NCBI GenBank assembly: GCA_000467715.1
Contig: AJFK01000026.1
Span: 62,001-126,000 of the forward strand
Source: Hysterium pulicare CBS 123377
Taxonomy: Eukaryota > Ascomycota > Dothideomycetes > Hysteriales > Hysteriaceae
Length of the DNA stretch: 64,000 bases
Reading direction: 5' to 3'
The notes beneath the pieces were generated by a model. It searched no databases and was not told the origin of the DNA. It worked only from the letters and a program-made list of their open reading frames with translations. Made by a program: the position numbers and the translations under genes. Positions 2,432-49,120 of the stretch are shown here, piece by piece. The first letter of the stretch is position 1; the number at the start of each line of letters is the position of its first letter.

Positions 2432-3862
2432 ATGCGTTACTTGACTCTCTTATTCCTCGGCTCGTTGGCGCCAGCCCTAGCGCGCGGGCATCAATCCGGA
2501 TCATCGCCAGCGCAGTATTGCAGAGTCGACAGTGGGCTGGGAGTTGACGCTTGCTTTACTTTTGCTTCCTATCTAAATTCCTCGTCCAATGGAAATGATC
2601 TGTATATTCGCACGTCGACCAGATTTCGAGATAGAGCGGGTTGGAGCGCTGTCGGCACCGGCGAAACCATGTCTGGCGCATTGATGTTCATTTTCTACCC
2701 TGCATCCGCCCATTCTGATGATGCAACCGTCAGCGTACGAACTACTACGTAAGTGTGAAGCTTGTATAATCGAAAATTGGTGTAGCTTATAATTCGCAAC
2801 AGCGAACACCACCCACCCAAACCGGCCGAAAACGCACCTAACTACGATGTCCTCAATGTATCTGTCCAAAATGGATATTACGATATCTCAATCGTCTGCT
2901 ACTCATGTGACCAATGGAGTGGACATGCTATTGATGTTACATCTGAGGCACAGGCCATGATTTACTCTGCACAAGTCGACGCAAAAATGCAGACTACGGA
3001 CAAAGCAGCATCTTTGTCGATTCATACCGATTATAGTACGTCAATCATTACACATTTATAATGCCTCATTAGTCAATGATTGTCCACAGAGCAATTCAAG
3101 ATCAACCTGAATCAAATTCATTCCGAAACCGCATCACCCACTCCACCCGAATTCGCGAAAAATGGACGCAAGACCACCGGTTTGGACGGCAGCATGTCGG
3201 AGAGCTATAAGCAGTTCAAGTACCACGGTATCTTAATGATTATCTCATTCACGGTTATGATACCATCTGCAGTGGTGTACCTTCGAAGTGGTATGCCGAA
3301 AGCTTTTACAGTGCATTGGATGGTTCAAGTTGCAGCGGCGATGATCGCGTTCTCCTCGGCGACATTCGCAATTGTAAAATCATGGGACAGCTTTGAGGTA
3401 TCTCGACTCTTTCATCTCACCATTTCCTTCGGCTAACAAAATGCTAGATGAGGCCTCAAACAACTCTTTCGCAGCACTTGACTCTCGGGACTCTGATCAC
3501 CATCTTTTTGGCACTTCAACCAGTCCTCGGATACTACCATCACGTGTACTACGTGAAACTCCAAAGGAGGACCTTGATCTCGCACCTCCATATCTGGGTC
3601 GGCAGAACATTGATTGTGTTTGCATGGGCCAACACGGGGCTGTAAGCTCCACTGACTCCCCATCCTTCGCCGCAACTGCTGACATGAATCCAGCGGGCTC
3701 AAACTTGCTCACACAAGTTCCACATACATGGTGTACTGGTTCGTTACGGTGGGTCTGGTGGCGGTGGCCATGGTCTGGGCACCAACGATCCCGACTGGTG
3801 TACACAAAATGCGGAAGAGTGGTAAAGAAGCGGAGTACAAGCCGTTGGACCCTGAGACATAA
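2432..3862 (+). CDS. DOMON domain - cytochrome b561 secretory-pathway membrane protein
   Basis: Exons 2432-2748, 2803-3035, 3090-3397, 3448-3641 and 3694-3862 join in frame to 406 residues. A signal peptide (MRYLTLLFLGSLAPALA) is followed by a DOMON-like beta-sandwich domain related to the cytochrome domain of cellobiose dehydrogenase (about residues 25-190). A five- or six-helix cytochrome b561 domain follows. Candidate haem-ligand histidines lie in 'YHGILM', 'VHWMVQ', 'YYHHVYY' and 'HLHIWVGR'. Such proteins move electrons across a membrane to an extracytoplasmic acceptor, often ferric iron or ascorbate-like donors. It sits 1.4 kb from the UstYa/precursor cluster and is transcribed towards it. 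Whether it serves the cluster oxidases is speculation. All junctions have GT-AG ends and keep phase. Confidence 0.85.
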
Positions 3863-7864: not shown

Positions 7865-9048
7865 ATGAAATTCCTTCTTTACGTTGCTTTGGCCTCTGTG
7901 GCAATTGCTGCTCCAGTTGCGAAAGTCAGCCATGAAGCCCGTGAGTGTCTCCTTACCGAGCTCAACGCACCTGAGCCATAAAAAAATTGCGGTGCTTACG
8001 ATGCTTTAGCTATGGCTCGCGACCCCCAGTACCAGGTTTGTTTCCCCTTTGGTCTACTTTGTTGAGAACTAGACTGACCCAGCTCAGCCCTTCAAGGCTG
8101 ATGGGGACGACATTGCGAAGCGTGACCCCCAGTACCAAGTTGGTTTCCCATTTGGTCTAGTTTATTGAGAATAAGACTGACCCAGCTTAGCCCTTCAAGG
8201 CTGATGGAGATGAGGCTGCTTATAAGAAGCGTGACCCCCAGTACCAAGTTCGTTTCCCCTTTAGTCTACTTTGTTGAGAATCAGACTGACCCAGCTTAGC
8301 CCTTCAAGGCTGATGGGGACGAGGCTGCTTATAAGAAGCGTGATCCCCAGTACCAGGTTAGTTCGTCCCTTACTTTGTTGAGAATCAAATTAGACTAACC
8401 AAGCTTAGCCTTTCAAGGCTGATGGGGACGAGGTTGCAAAGCGTGACCCCCAGTACCAAGTTAGTTTGCCGCTTTAGTCTCCTGTAGGTATTGAGAATTG
8501 GGCTAACCTAGCTTAGCCCTTTAAGGCTGATGGGGACGACATTGCGAAGCGTGACCCCCAGTATCAGGTTAGTTCGCCCCTTATTTTGTTGGGAATTAAA
8601 CTGACCCAGCTTAGCCTTTTAAGGCTGATGGGGACGACATTGCGAAGCGTGACCCTCAGTACCAGGTTAGTTCGGCCCTTACTTCGTTCGGAATTAGACT
8701 AACCAAGCTTAGCCCTTTAAGGCTGATGGGGACGAAATTGCAAAGCGTGACCCCCAATACCAGGTTAGTTTGCCCCTCTAGTTTACTTTAAGAATTGAAC
8801 TAACCCAGCTCAGCCCTTTAAGGCTGACGGGGACGACATTGCGAAGCGTGACCCCCAGTACCAGGTTAGTTCACCCCTTACTTTGTTGGGAATTAGACTG
8901 ACTCAGCTTAGCCCTTCAAGGCTGATGGGGATGATGTTACGAAGCGTGAGCCCCAGTACCAGGTTAGTTCGCCCGTTACGTTGTTGAGAATTGGACTAAC
9001 CTAGCTCAGCCTTTCAAGGCTGATGAGGAGAAGGCCGGCCAATACTGA
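7865..9048 (+). CDS. Repeat-containing RiPP precursor (dikaritin/KEP type), one exon per repeat
   Basis: Model of 12 exons: 7865-7940, 8010-8035, 8088-8138, 8191-8247, 8300-8356, 8409-8459, 8517-8567, 8615-8665, 8713-8763, 8814-8864, 8912-8962, 9010-9048; about 203 residues. A signal peptide (MKFLLYVALASVAIAAP) and a leader ending PMAR are followed by ten units. The first is DPQYQPFKADGDDIAKR; variants carry DEAAYKKR (units 2 and 3), DEVAKR, DEIAKR and DDVTKR; the last is EPQYQPFKADEEKAGQY and ends at the stop. Nine units end in KR, a Kex2 site. Exons 3-11 each encode PFKADGD...KRDPQYQ. All introns after the first are phase 0, 47-57 nt, with GTT-type donors (mostly GTTAGT), a CTGAC/CTAAC branch-like motif and CTTAG/CTCAG acceptors. 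The single invariant Tyr next to UstYa genes fits a crosslinked cyclic peptide. It could instead be an unmodified Kex2-processed secreted peptide. The splice model is an inference. Confidence 0.85.
8036..9009 (+). repeat. Tandem genomic repeat of about 98-109 bp (exon plus intron unit)
   Basis: Exon starts at 8088, 8191, 8300, 8409, 8517, 8615, 8713, 8814, 8912 and 9010 give periods of 103, 109, 109, 108, 98, 98, 101, 98 and 98 bp. Introns are as alike as exons (for example 'GACTGACCCAGCTTAG' recurs), so the duplicated unit includes the intron. Confidence 0.9.
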
Positions 9049-12493: not shown

Positions 12494-14432
<1,939 letters not shown>

Positions 14433-19055: not shown

Positions 19056-21615
19056 ATGTCTACCCTTTGCTCCACCTGCGCGGCTGTCGACTTTGACAGC
19101 CTTATGTATTCCGAGACCGTCACAATTTACCCATTAAGAACAGTGCAAGACATAGTATCAGAAAATGAATGTCCAAGCTGCCGGCTGTTTGCCGCCCTCT
19201 TATCTAAATCCTGGAACATGTCAGAACCAGAAATTGCGCATATTCGTCCGCCAGTCCGTAGCTGGCTTCGGAACATCCAGTGGGCACGATGGGCCACACC
19301 TAATAAAGCTACCGGTCACTATCGCCTGATGTTGGGTACTGATTGGATACCTAGTATTGAAAGAGGCTCATTTTCCAGCTCCACTCTCGCTATGCTGTCG
19401 CTCAGATAGACGTTAGTCCTATTGCTTCTAATTCCCCAACGATGGTGCCAATCGATGATCAGACACCGTTCATGTTCCGACGAAGGGTCCTGGAAAGTGA
19501 AATTCGGTTCCCTATGATATGCGATTGGCTTTTGGAATGCGAGTCTCATCATCTTCACTCGCAAGATGTGAGCCCGCAGCCTGACCGTTCGTCTCGCCTG
19601 GCATCGATCAAATTCCGAGTCATTAACGTTACGACAAACCGGATCGAAGAGAGCCGTGGTCGTTATATCGCTCTTTCATACGTTTGGGGAGCATCCATAA
19701 CGCAAGATACGAACAAAAGCAAAGCATTTGACGACGAGGGCTGCCTTATCATCGACAATTTGCCGAGGACCATTAGAGACGCCATTCTTTTGACGAAACT
19801 CGTAGGAGAGCAGTTCCTATGGGTTGACTGGCTATGCATCGACCAGGCGGACTCTGCACACAAGACTGCTGCCATCAATAGCATGGATCTAATCTATGAG
19901 TCAGCGTGCTTGACCATCGTTGCTGCTGCCGGAAAGGATGCAGATGCCGGTCTACCTGGACTTCGGTCCACTCCAAGGCGGGCAGAGACCGTGACGGAAA
20001 TTCGAGTAGGGAACAAAACGGTACAAATGTGCGCTGCCAGGCCCAGCCTCGCTACGTTGATTGAGCAGAGTCACTGGAACACCAGAGGATGGACGTTTCA
20101 GGAACATATGTTATCGAAACGAACCCTTTACTTTACAGAAGATGAAGTGTTCTTTTGCTGTCCGAACAACGTTTTTGGCTCGACTATCTGGAATTATGGC
20201 TCGCATTATACCAATTACACAGATATGCGATACAGTTGCTGGAGAGAAGCATACGTTCTCGAAACGCGAAATGTTCATACCAACTACCACCCCAATATTC
20301 CATGGGGAGATAGCGGCTTCAGAAAGGCACAGCCTGCGATACGGCCATCACTTGAAGTTAAAAGTTCCGAAGACCTAAATTCTACACTGAGACGGCCTCG
20401 CGAGAGCAGTTCAGGGTATACGCATGTGCAGCCAGCGTTTGAACTCAGAAATCCCGAAGTCTTCAGCTCCAACTTCGCAGGGTATGCTGATCTCGTTTCG
20501 GAGTATTCTAGGAGACAGCTGTCAAACGGCGAGGACGCTGTAGCGGCGTTTGCCGGGATACTTAATAAGCTATACCATCAGCTGGGAACTACAAGAGCGC
20601 ACGGGCTTCCACTTTCGGATTTTGGAAAAGCCCTTCTATGGTTCCCAAACGATTCCAATCGGTCTTTACGACGTCGACAAGCCCAGTGCAGCCCAGGTTA
20701 TAGGTTTCCAAGTTGGAGCTGGTCTGGCTGGGAGGGCTCGGTTTGCTATCATCTCGCTAACAGTGATGTTGGCTTCTCTCTGAGGATTCGTAAGTATGAA
20801 GCTATCCAAAACTCATTTCGTGATGCTGATACTCATAAGCGCATTTACACGTTAAATCTGTCATGATAGTAGAAATGCTTGTAGAGTGTGTGTCACATAA
20901 TAGTTACGTGATAATCGGGCGCCTGCAGAGCGTGCAGGATGAAAAGAAGTCTAAGCACGACGGATTACAAACAGAAGACGAATCGGAACTCGAATATGAT
21001 ATGCCAGCCTCCCTATTGTCCGGTCCACCTGTACAGTCTCAGCAATCCAACCACGATGGATCACGAATGCAGGATAGATTGGCACGAGGAGCTGTCTCGT
21101 TAACTCCTCTATGGTCAAATCTACGTGTACAGTCTCAGCGAATGCTAAGCTACATGTACGGAGCCATGAATAGGTCAAGTACGCAAGACAACTCACCTAT
21201 CCTGCGTCTCTTCACTACTTGTGTGATGGTTCATTCAGGAGCTGAAGAACCCGCAGCGATTTACGAGACCCACACCTTCGATGTAATACTGGACGAAAAA
21301 GTGTCACCACTGGGTGTGCAGTCTGAAGAGCTTAAGATCGTTGCGATCCGTGGAACCCGAGATGATCCCTTCCAGATCCATGCTGTCACTGCTTCGGATC
21401 TGACTACAAGGATAGAATTGCCGTCTGGAAGGTTTGAGCTGGTGGCCGTCTCGAGAGGTCGACGTCACATGGAATACGAAGAGCAACCGTACCAGGAATA
21501 TGTGGCGTTAGTAGTGGAACATAATGGGGATTACTTCGAGCGCATCGGTGTTACCTGCATACAAAAGAACGTCTGGCTAAGTGCAGCTCGTGAGACCTGG
21601 ATAGATCTACGGTAA
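19056..21615 (+). pseudogene. Heterokaryon-incompatibility (HET) domain gene, broken
   Basis: An N-terminal zinc-ribbon-like segment (CSTCAAVDFDSL, CPSCRLF) runs from the ATG at 19056 to a stop at about 19407. One frame over, from about 19372, coding goes on (LHSRYAVAQIDVSP) into the HET domain with its three signature blocks: 'YIALSYVWGA', 'LWVDWLCIDQ' and 'NTRGWTFQEHMLS', to a stop at 20864-20866. From 20863 a third frame gives the C-terminal part (VECVSHNSYVIIGRL...) to 21615, the kind of sequence that normally follows 'YTLNLS' in HET proteins. So two frame changes break one original gene of about 830 codons. HET proteins trigger incompatibility cell death when intact. Confidence 0.75.
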
Positions 21616-47185: not shown

Positions 47186-49120
47186 CTAATATCTGTATGT
47201 CACAGTACCTCTCTCCGCGATGGGCGACACATCACTATCTGGTCTCCCTCTCCCATCTCGGGGCCTCGACTGCTCCGGTGTCCTCGGGCCATTATTAACC
47301 GGGTAATCACGTGCATATTCTTCTTCCTCCGTCATCTGCCTCTGTGGAGGAGCACGGGGAGGCGATGCACCCCCGGACATGGTGAGATTTCGCCCGGAGC
47401 TCTCTTGACGTTGGATATATGAAGGCGTTGGCTGATAGCCGGGGTGATATGGAGCCGGTGGGCCATTATTGCCGATACCAAGGCCATGGTTGCTATTTGA
47501 TCGTTCCCTCTGGAGGTCTTCCTCGCGGTCCGAGACACGTCGCATTGCATCTCGCGAGGGTGGCGGAGGAGCGCCAGCCGGAGATTGGTAAGTTGGAGAA
47601 TGATGATCTGCGAACGGATCATCTGCGTACTCTGAGTTGGAGTTGGTAGGCGAAGCTGTTCGCTGACGGTGAGGAGCAGCCTGGAGGGACATCGGAAGGG
47701 GCTCGTATGAAGGATTTGAAGGTTGCGTCTCTTCTTTTGAGGAAACATTCAGTGGGGGTAGGAGTGAAGCTTCATGGCGAGGTGGTACAACCGGTGGGTT
47801 GTATGAGTGGTTCATTGGAGGTGGTACACTCGGTGGGCTATAATTGCTCATTGGAGGTGATACAGCTGGTGAGTTATAAGATCTGTTCATTGGAGGCGGT
47901 ACAGCCGGTGTGTTATAGTTATTCATTGGAGGTAGCAGGGCTGGTGGGTTGTAAGGGCTGTTCGTCGGAGGAGGTACTGAGGGTAGCGGATTGTTGTTGT
48001 TTGACGGGATGGGGGGTGATGGAGTAGCACCCCCAAACGCTTTCCGAGCTTGCAGAACGGCGCGCTGATGTTTCGAGGCCGCCAGGGACAGTTGCTCATT
48101 TGTCTCGATAAGCGTGAGCATGGTATCATCGTCTGGTGCTGGGTTGTCGCAATTGATGTAGCCTTGGACACTTCGTTGTGCTGCTTGACAGCGCTCCGAG
48201 AACTCTTTTACAAGATCGTTGCTCATTAGTTCGTTTGGAGGTGTGGATTGGACAAGCTGGAGGAGAAGCTTTGCAGATGTCCGCGCTTCTTCTATGCGTC
48301 CAACAAGTTCGGCGGGTGGTGGTAGACCCCGTTCACGTCGTGACCCTGACCCTGACCCAAACCCTCCTCCTCCTTGTTGTGCTCCATTCCATGCCGGAGC
48401 ATTCAAAGTCCGAGGACCAAAATGTGGTGTAACGCCTCCGTTTGCGCTGGCCATCAACCCCTTCTCTTTCCTCCACATGGCGAACAAGATGTTGAGGTTC
48501 GTGTCATAGGCCTTCTCCCTATCAAGAGCATCTAGTGTCTCTTTCAGTATCTGGCTGACGCTAGGATCTCGCCCATTTCGTAGCAAATGTTTCACCGTGT
48601 CCGCAAAGTTCTTATCCATATTCTTTGTGAAGGACTGGCCGGGATTATCTGCCAGTATCCGAATGAGCATGACGGCATTGTACTGTACGTGTGGACGACC
48701 GTAGTTCTCTTTGGAGAGGAATTTGCGGATCTGACCGCATGCTGCAGCGGCTGCGGCAGGACTCGCGACGGCGGATTCGACGATGGTAGGAAGATGTAGG
48801 ACTTCTTCTCCCTGGAAATGAGTTGGTCAGTTGATGGATTAGAATTTTAAGATGCAACTTACGGAATTTGCGGCTCCAGACTCACAAAACAGTCTCTAAT
48901 AAAGAAAGTCAGTCTGTGAGCTGGTTGGGGTTGGACTTGAACCTTACAACTCCTCTTGCGGCATTGGCTTCTGGTGTGTCGAGTTGAGGCGCGTTTTCTT
49001 CTTCTTGGCCTGCTAATGATTGATCAGGACATATGGAACTTCAATATGTTGCGCTTCCCACTCACCTGGACGTTTGTTCAACAAACTACCCAGGCCACCG
49101 GTAAACCTTTTGAGCACCAT
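47186..49120 (-). CDS. VHS-GAT domain protein (Lsb5-like)
   Basis: Exons (minus) 49120-49066, 49009-48948, 48895-48863 and 48811-47186 give 591 residues. It starts 'MVLKRFTGGLGSLLNKRPG'. The VHS-like helical domain (about 45-170) includes 'LVLPTIVES'-type 'HLPTIVESAVASPAA' and 'VMLIRILADNPG'; a GAT domain follows at about 220-310 ('ELVGRIEEARTSAKLLLQL', 'TLIETNEQLSLAASKHQRAV'). VHS-GAT proteins bind ubiquitin and sort cargo at endosomes or couple actin to endocytosis. The rest is Pro/Asn/Ser-rich and holds about five copies of a 13-residue unit (NSPYNPPALLPPM-like), encoded at about 47790-47960. The 33-nt exon 3 is needed to keep 'RLFCESGAANS'. Confidence 0.85.

Follow-up and report, generated by a model that had tools for sequence, protein, structure and literature searches.

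A gene in which a putative intron interrupts every copy of a short repeated peptide lies at positions 7865-9048 (+ strand) of the window, the whole 64-kb stretch of DNA that was analysed, in a host genome that totals 37.2 Mb over 596 contigs. The gene probably encodes the precursor of a Kex2-processed repeat protein (KEP) with intron-bearing repeats, whose peptides may be modified by neighbouring proteins with HxxHC motifs. At the sequence level, assignment to the KEP class is well supported, and a RiPP-type modification of the peptides is plausible. As far as the literature searched extends, what is new is that, in a fungal precursor, each of the short peptides bounded by Kex2 sites contains a putative phase-0 intron. 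If this arrangement is real, no mature copy of the peptide can be made without splicing.

The rebuilt gene model, with its putative splicing, comprises 12 exons and 11 introns, and one open frame of 612 nt including the stop codon spans all 12 exons and encodes 203 aa. The protein starts with MKFLLYVALASVAIAAPVAKVSHEAPMAR, upstream of the array, and a hydrophobic N-terminus is followed by ten PQYQ-PFKAD units, with ten copies of each half; nine units end in KR and the last runs to the stop codon. Exon 1 (7865-7940) encodes a leader (MKFLLYVALASVAIAAP...) that, by eye, resembles a signal peptide. It is followed by intron 1 (7941-8009; 69 nt, phase 1, GTGAGT...TAG, without a CTRAY match) and by exon 2 (8010-8035), which ends in the first DPQYQ; AR, not KR, precedes this copy. 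Between 8036 and 9009, ten putative phase-0 introns (introns 2-6 at 8036-8087, 8139-8190, 8248-8299, 8357-8408 and 8460-8516; introns 7-11 at 8568-8614, 8666-8712, 8764-8813, 8865-8911 and 8963-9009) alternate with nine exons that encode PFKADGD-x-KR-[DE]PQYQ (exons 3-7 at 8088-8138, 8191-8247, 8300-8356, 8409-8459 and 8517-8567; exons 8-11 at 8615-8665, 8713-8763, 8814-8864 and 8912-8962). Seven of these internal exons measure 51 nt and two measure 57 nt, while introns 2-11 are 47, 50, 52 or 57 nt long and each falls at a Q/P junction. Exon 12 (9010-9048) contributes PFKADEEKAGQY and the stop codon, without a KR. Read without splicing, the array (8021-9031) contains 26 stops in the frame shown.

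The original prediction placed the gene correctly and had its unit count, its intron phases and its 51- or 57-nt exons right, all of which recur in the rebuilt model of 12 exons, ten units and nine KR sites with the introns after the first between Q and P. Its claim that every peptide repeat has its own exon has to be corrected. Because the KR-to-KR segment is DPQYQPFKADGD-x (DPQYQ|PFKADGD...), the intron falls inside each peptide, after residue 5, and no exon corresponds to one peptide. Each internal exon is instead a Kex2-site cassette that joins two half-peptides, with the end of one peptide before the KR and the start of the following one after it.

Splicing is predicted from signals that recur throughout the array. 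The set GTNNGT...CTRAC...YAG is present in all ten of introns 2-11; since exactly 9 nt follow the branch motif in 10/10 introns, all length changes lie upstream of it. Composition shuffles of the same introns never carried the signal set (0/20,000). On the + strand, a relaxed version of the pattern matched 11 times in the 1.18-kb gene, corresponding to the ten introns plus an alternative donor at 8361, versus five times in the other 62.8 kb; on the − strand, it matched ten times in the whole window, once inside the gene. Two features count against the spliced reading. Introns 2-11 carry T at donor position 3, where fungi more often have A or G, so splicing could be leaky, and intron 1 shows no CTRAY match despite its GTGAGT donor.

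The variation among the nine internal exons is mostly silent. Over 36 pairs, 42, 28 and 162 differences fall at codon positions 1, 2 and 3, respectively, giving a pS of 0.376, a pN of 0.066 and a pN/pS of 0.18, which are raw proportions, not corrected for multiple hits, among copies that are not independent. Without the five variable linker columns, the remaining core yields a pS of 0.392 and a pN of 0.0065. This predominance of silent change indicates that the frame is under selection. Internal exon lengths span only 6 nt, and the differences in intron length are mostly not multiples of three. With the spliced precursor as query, a search found no homologue at E ≤ 1e-3 among 5.8 billion proteins. 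That result would suit a decaying or silent locus, in which tandem DNA retains coding relics and gives no spliced product, but such a locus is very unlikely given the strong bias towards silent change, the frame that stays open over 12 exons and the splice signals intact in 10/10 introns.

Introns 2-11 share 77-93% pairwise identity. When a 22-nt intron core was searched against the whole 37.2-Mb genome with at most 3 mismatches, seven of the ten introns were matched and no site elsewhere, and the backward control gave 0 matches; the exon core occurs ten times in the genome, every time within the precursor gene. The likeness of the introns and the confinement of their core to this gene make it more likely that a unit was duplicated together with its intron than that a mobile intron inserted again and again. 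Judged from the sequence, the array most likely grew as a 98-109 bp unit, with the intron already in place, was copied in tandem. Unit spacings are 98, 101, 103 and 109 bp, and the fact that eight of nine are not multiples of three is harmless because of the introns.

Simple whole-unit duplication would predict a correlation between exon and intron distances, and the Mantel result counts against it, with no correlation upstream (r 0.06, p 0.34) or downstream (r -0.015, p 0.44). Descent may not have proceeded simply by whole units, unless the test lacks power: copies may have converted one another, or the sites may be too few to show a correlation. Uncorrelated distances would also be expected if introner-like mobile elements had entered every repeat of a once uninterrupted array at one site, by separate insertions, and near-identical introns at that site in all ten repeats fit the scenario. 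We nevertheless regard it as extremely improbable and already largely refuted, given that with as many as 3 mismatches allowed the intron core is found nowhere else in the genome (in a search that saw 7/10 introns) and that duplication is a likelier course than ten insertions confined to a single gene. An introner-like family would show near-identical introns in many genes, whereas 7/7 genome matches of the 22-nt intron core in that search fall in the precursor gene.

The predicted spliced product has sequence features of a KEP. Like the proteins described in the cited parts of two KEP surveys (PMC7329392, PMC6339444), it combines an N-terminus that by eye resembles a signal peptide with at least three repeats of at least 8 aa between dibasic sites, a Tyr in the repeat and X-Pro after KR; unlike them, it is encoded with an intron in every repeat. 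Tandem repeats of this number and length between Kex2 dibasic sites are the KEP criterion given in PMC7329392, and the spliced model has ten units and nine KR sites. In the pathway we favor, the transcript would be spliced at ten near-identical phase-0 introns, one within each peptide, and the precursor would enter the secretory pathway, where Kex2 would cleave after every KR. A carboxypeptidase would then trim the KR, and Ste13-type removal of the leading DP is possible. The expected yield is some ten (DP)QYQPFKADGD-x peptides per precursor, with DPQYQPFKADGDDIA and QYQPFKADGDDIA among the candidate mature forms. Three flanking remote relatives of UstYa probably oxidise the peptide, for which the conserved Tyr is the most likely site.

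Two other fates of the spliced precursor have to be weighed. According to the cited part of PMC7329392, α-type pheromone KEPs that are processed by Ste13 carry XA or XP directly behind the Kex2 site, and here DP or EP follows 9/9 KR sites. Together with the distant relation of the neighbors to UstYa, this motif makes it possible, if not the expectation, that the peptides act in linear, unmodified form as hormone- or pheromone-like signals that are trimmed by Kex1 and Ste13 and have nothing to do with the HxxHC proteins encoded nearby. We know of no pheromone-like mature sequence that the peptide resembles. Against linear signals stand the flanking HxxHC pair, which appears to be conserved together, and the Tyr of the peptide: among the repeats of KEPs adjoining DUF3328 genes, 65.6% are reported to contain Tyr, versus 38.2% of other repeats (PMC7329392, cited part). 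A repeat protein that is secreted yet left uncut, as a component of the cell wall or surface, is improbable; the repeat protein SspN was seen uncleaved despite its kexin motif, but the cited part of that report (PMC6374014) gives SspN a single site, versus nine evenly spaced KR sites here, present in 9/9 internal exons.

Modification of the Kex2-released peptides would depend on the genes on either side of the precursor. P0001 (6567-7238, − strand; start codon from an alignment) encodes a membrane-helix protein with two HxxHC motifs. P0002 (5274-6011, − strand) and P0003 (10595-11332, + strand), both with start codons placed by eye, encode proteins of the same family, P0002 being more divergent and P0003 sharing 35% identity with P0001 in the core region. 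In whole-genome searches, P0001 and P0003 each recovered itself and the other (35% and 33% identity) and nothing more, whereas P0002 recovered itself alone, although direct comparison with P0001 gave an E value of 3e-6. The H and C residues of the two motifs are invariant in 45/45 aligned family members. The Pfam UstYa (PF11807) cut-off was reached by 0/3 neighbors, including P0002 with its weak match at E 0.065, and the profile search found no PF11807 match within the 64-kb window. At E ≤ 1, 16 of the 45 family members match Pfam UstYa, the best at 1.8e-4. Alignment of the HxxHC family with seven UstYa proteins of the host genome by hhalign superposed both motifs with a probability of 52.8% and an E value of 1.4e-4, and with a narrower alignment the probability was only 11%. 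The predicted model of P0001 (mean pLDDT 73; at least 90 in 104/245 residues) agrees around the motifs with the weak model of one UstYa protein of the host genome (mean pLDDT 59), both showing a strand, helix, short helix, helix and strands. Among solved structures in the PDB, none matched the P0001 model at E ≤ 0.001. No cut-off was reached, yet the relatives at E ≤ 1, the hhalign result and the likeness of the models point to distant kinship; on these sequence comparisons and predicted models, P0001, P0002 and P0003 are best described as one family of remote UstYa relatives, not UstYa members.

Named relatives of these proteins come from filamentous ascomycetes, e.g., Metarhizium, Beauveria, Colletotrichum and Claviceps. 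Among the 120 of 209 P0003 matches listed, seven of the 19 P0001 homologues pair with a P0003 homologue of equal longest-contig size (9062, 7946, 7902, 60108, 9563, 5971 and 321444). All of these but the last are the lengths of metagenome contigs. The equal sizes would place both genes on the same contig, and the flanking P0001-P0003 pair thus appears to be conserved together. In Metarhizium acridum, the two homologues bear consecutive locus tags (J3459_016635/016636), which suggests that no precursor is annotated between them; this fits either the absence of one or a missed multi-exon gene. Two further family members, P0026 (Colletotrichum melonis, annotated at 377 aa) and P0028 (C. simmondsii, 372 aa), seem to hold two tandem HxxHC-family modules, as fused genes or merged gene models.

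The original prediction of a RiPP precursor stands in part. The gene is a Kex2-type repeat precursor beside remote UstYa relatives, and it shares Tyr-containing repeats, KR sites and adjoining HxxHC proteins with the dikaritin precursors ustA (ustiloxin) and phomA (phomopsin). A dikaritin type is supported only in part: the neighbors stay below the Pfam UstYa cut-off, the YXIX core of the ustiloxin/phomopsin type is absent from the precursor, where the Tyr common to all units sits in PQYQPF, and no tyrosinase or methyltransferase was named among 37 of the 91 long ORFs of the window, a set of stop-to-stop fragments in which split genes could be missed. The repeats of ustA and phomA are not known to be interrupted by introns, unlike those of the gene described here. 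Ding et al., as quoted in PMC12048977, list tyrosinase and methyltransferase genes for dikaritin clusters; according to PMC12048977 itself, some of these can be missing from functional clusters.

The original prediction knew of no described precursor with this layout, and the open-licence literature searched likewise yielded no fungal Kex2 precursor reported to carry an intron in all of its repeats. The main texts of the KEP surveys PMC7329392 and PMC6339444 make no mention of introns, exons or splicing, and neither does the Trichoderma RiPP paper PMC7099791. In the cited part of PMC9769878, introns come up only for cDNA cloning, and for repeated Huntiella a-factor genes the corresponding part of PMC10182648 describes an absence of introns. 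Repeats multiplied through exon duplication have a precedent: in nasonin-6 of the wasp Nasonia vitripennis, each defensin repeat has its own exon, which the cited part of PMC2853521 credits to exon duplication. That protein differs in having, as described there, phase-1 introns and folded defensin domains without protease processing signals, whereas the phase-0 introns of the present gene cut short, KR-bounded peptides. Among vertebrates, the caerulein precursors of frog skin encode short secreted peptide copies on repeated exons.

The uniform phase of the introns also has consequences for alternative splicing. Exon skipping had been predicted to be safe for the frame, and this is borne out by the gene model: joining each phase-0 donor to its own or a later acceptor keeps 55/55 pairings in frame with the normal stop, for products of 46-203 aa. 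Single retention of intron 1-6, 9 or 11 ends translation within that intron (38-204 aa), while single retention of intron 7, 8 or 10 gives a frameshifted product of 219 aa. Control of peptide dose and mixture by splicing itself, through skipping or intron retention, is speculative and in our judgment unlikely. If it existed, ten near-interchangeable phase-0 donors and acceptors would let the fungus adjust the number of peptides through its RNA, and a retained intron would end translation after a set copy number. Recombination within introns could likewise alter copy number, with unit length free of the multiple-of-three constraint. If its layout is real, the precursor is also a natural setting in which to ask whether peptide dose is varied through interchangeable splice sites.

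Uninterrupted repeat precursors occur in the same genome. Its 43 UstYa matches were grouped by us into 28 loci, of which 17 were read with some 5 kb of flanking DNA, in places less, and eight with about 1.5 kb. An open-frame scan of 68 loci, covering 25/28 UstYa places, listed two KR-repeat precursors without interruption, C307 and C281. C307 (L036, about 1310-1655, + strand) has five repeats, FEADPMLQVGD...SSYAGKR, in a 115-aa frame about 1 kb from a UstYa match, and an MKF-type leader like that of the gene described here; its F-x-A-D resembles PFKAD. C281 (L045, about 3013-3483, − strand; SYAHLYKEAEDEGLVKR) occupies a 157-aa frame that lies no more than about 2 kb from a UstYa match; a period-90 tandem array falls inside it. 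Both resemble the present gene in their KR-separated repeats, with a UstYa match within about 2 kb, but differ in that their repeats sit in one open frame. Further tandem arrays lie in L047 (period 69), L052 (174) and L064 (30). UstYa (PF11807) matches are also present on the precursor's own contig, about 50 kb upstream (C23:18060-20366).

The same scan did not list the gene at 7865-9048, although its DNA was included as L031 and L032. If the layout is real, genes of this type would escape searches for a repetitive open frame, and annotation-based surveys would pass over them wherever gene calling fails on series of 51-nt exons, so that the number of RiPP-like precursors in fungi may be underestimated.

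Further right, the next gene (12494-13222, + strand) resembles, judged by eye, a UDP-galactopyranose mutase; Pfam searches with two of its exon fragments gave no match. Elsewhere in the window, a HET (heterokaryon incompatibility) domain is encoded at 19361-20866 (+ strand; E 7.8e-33), and tandem repeats of about 39 nt lie at 47771-47977, inside a reverse-strand ORF with a GAT domain.
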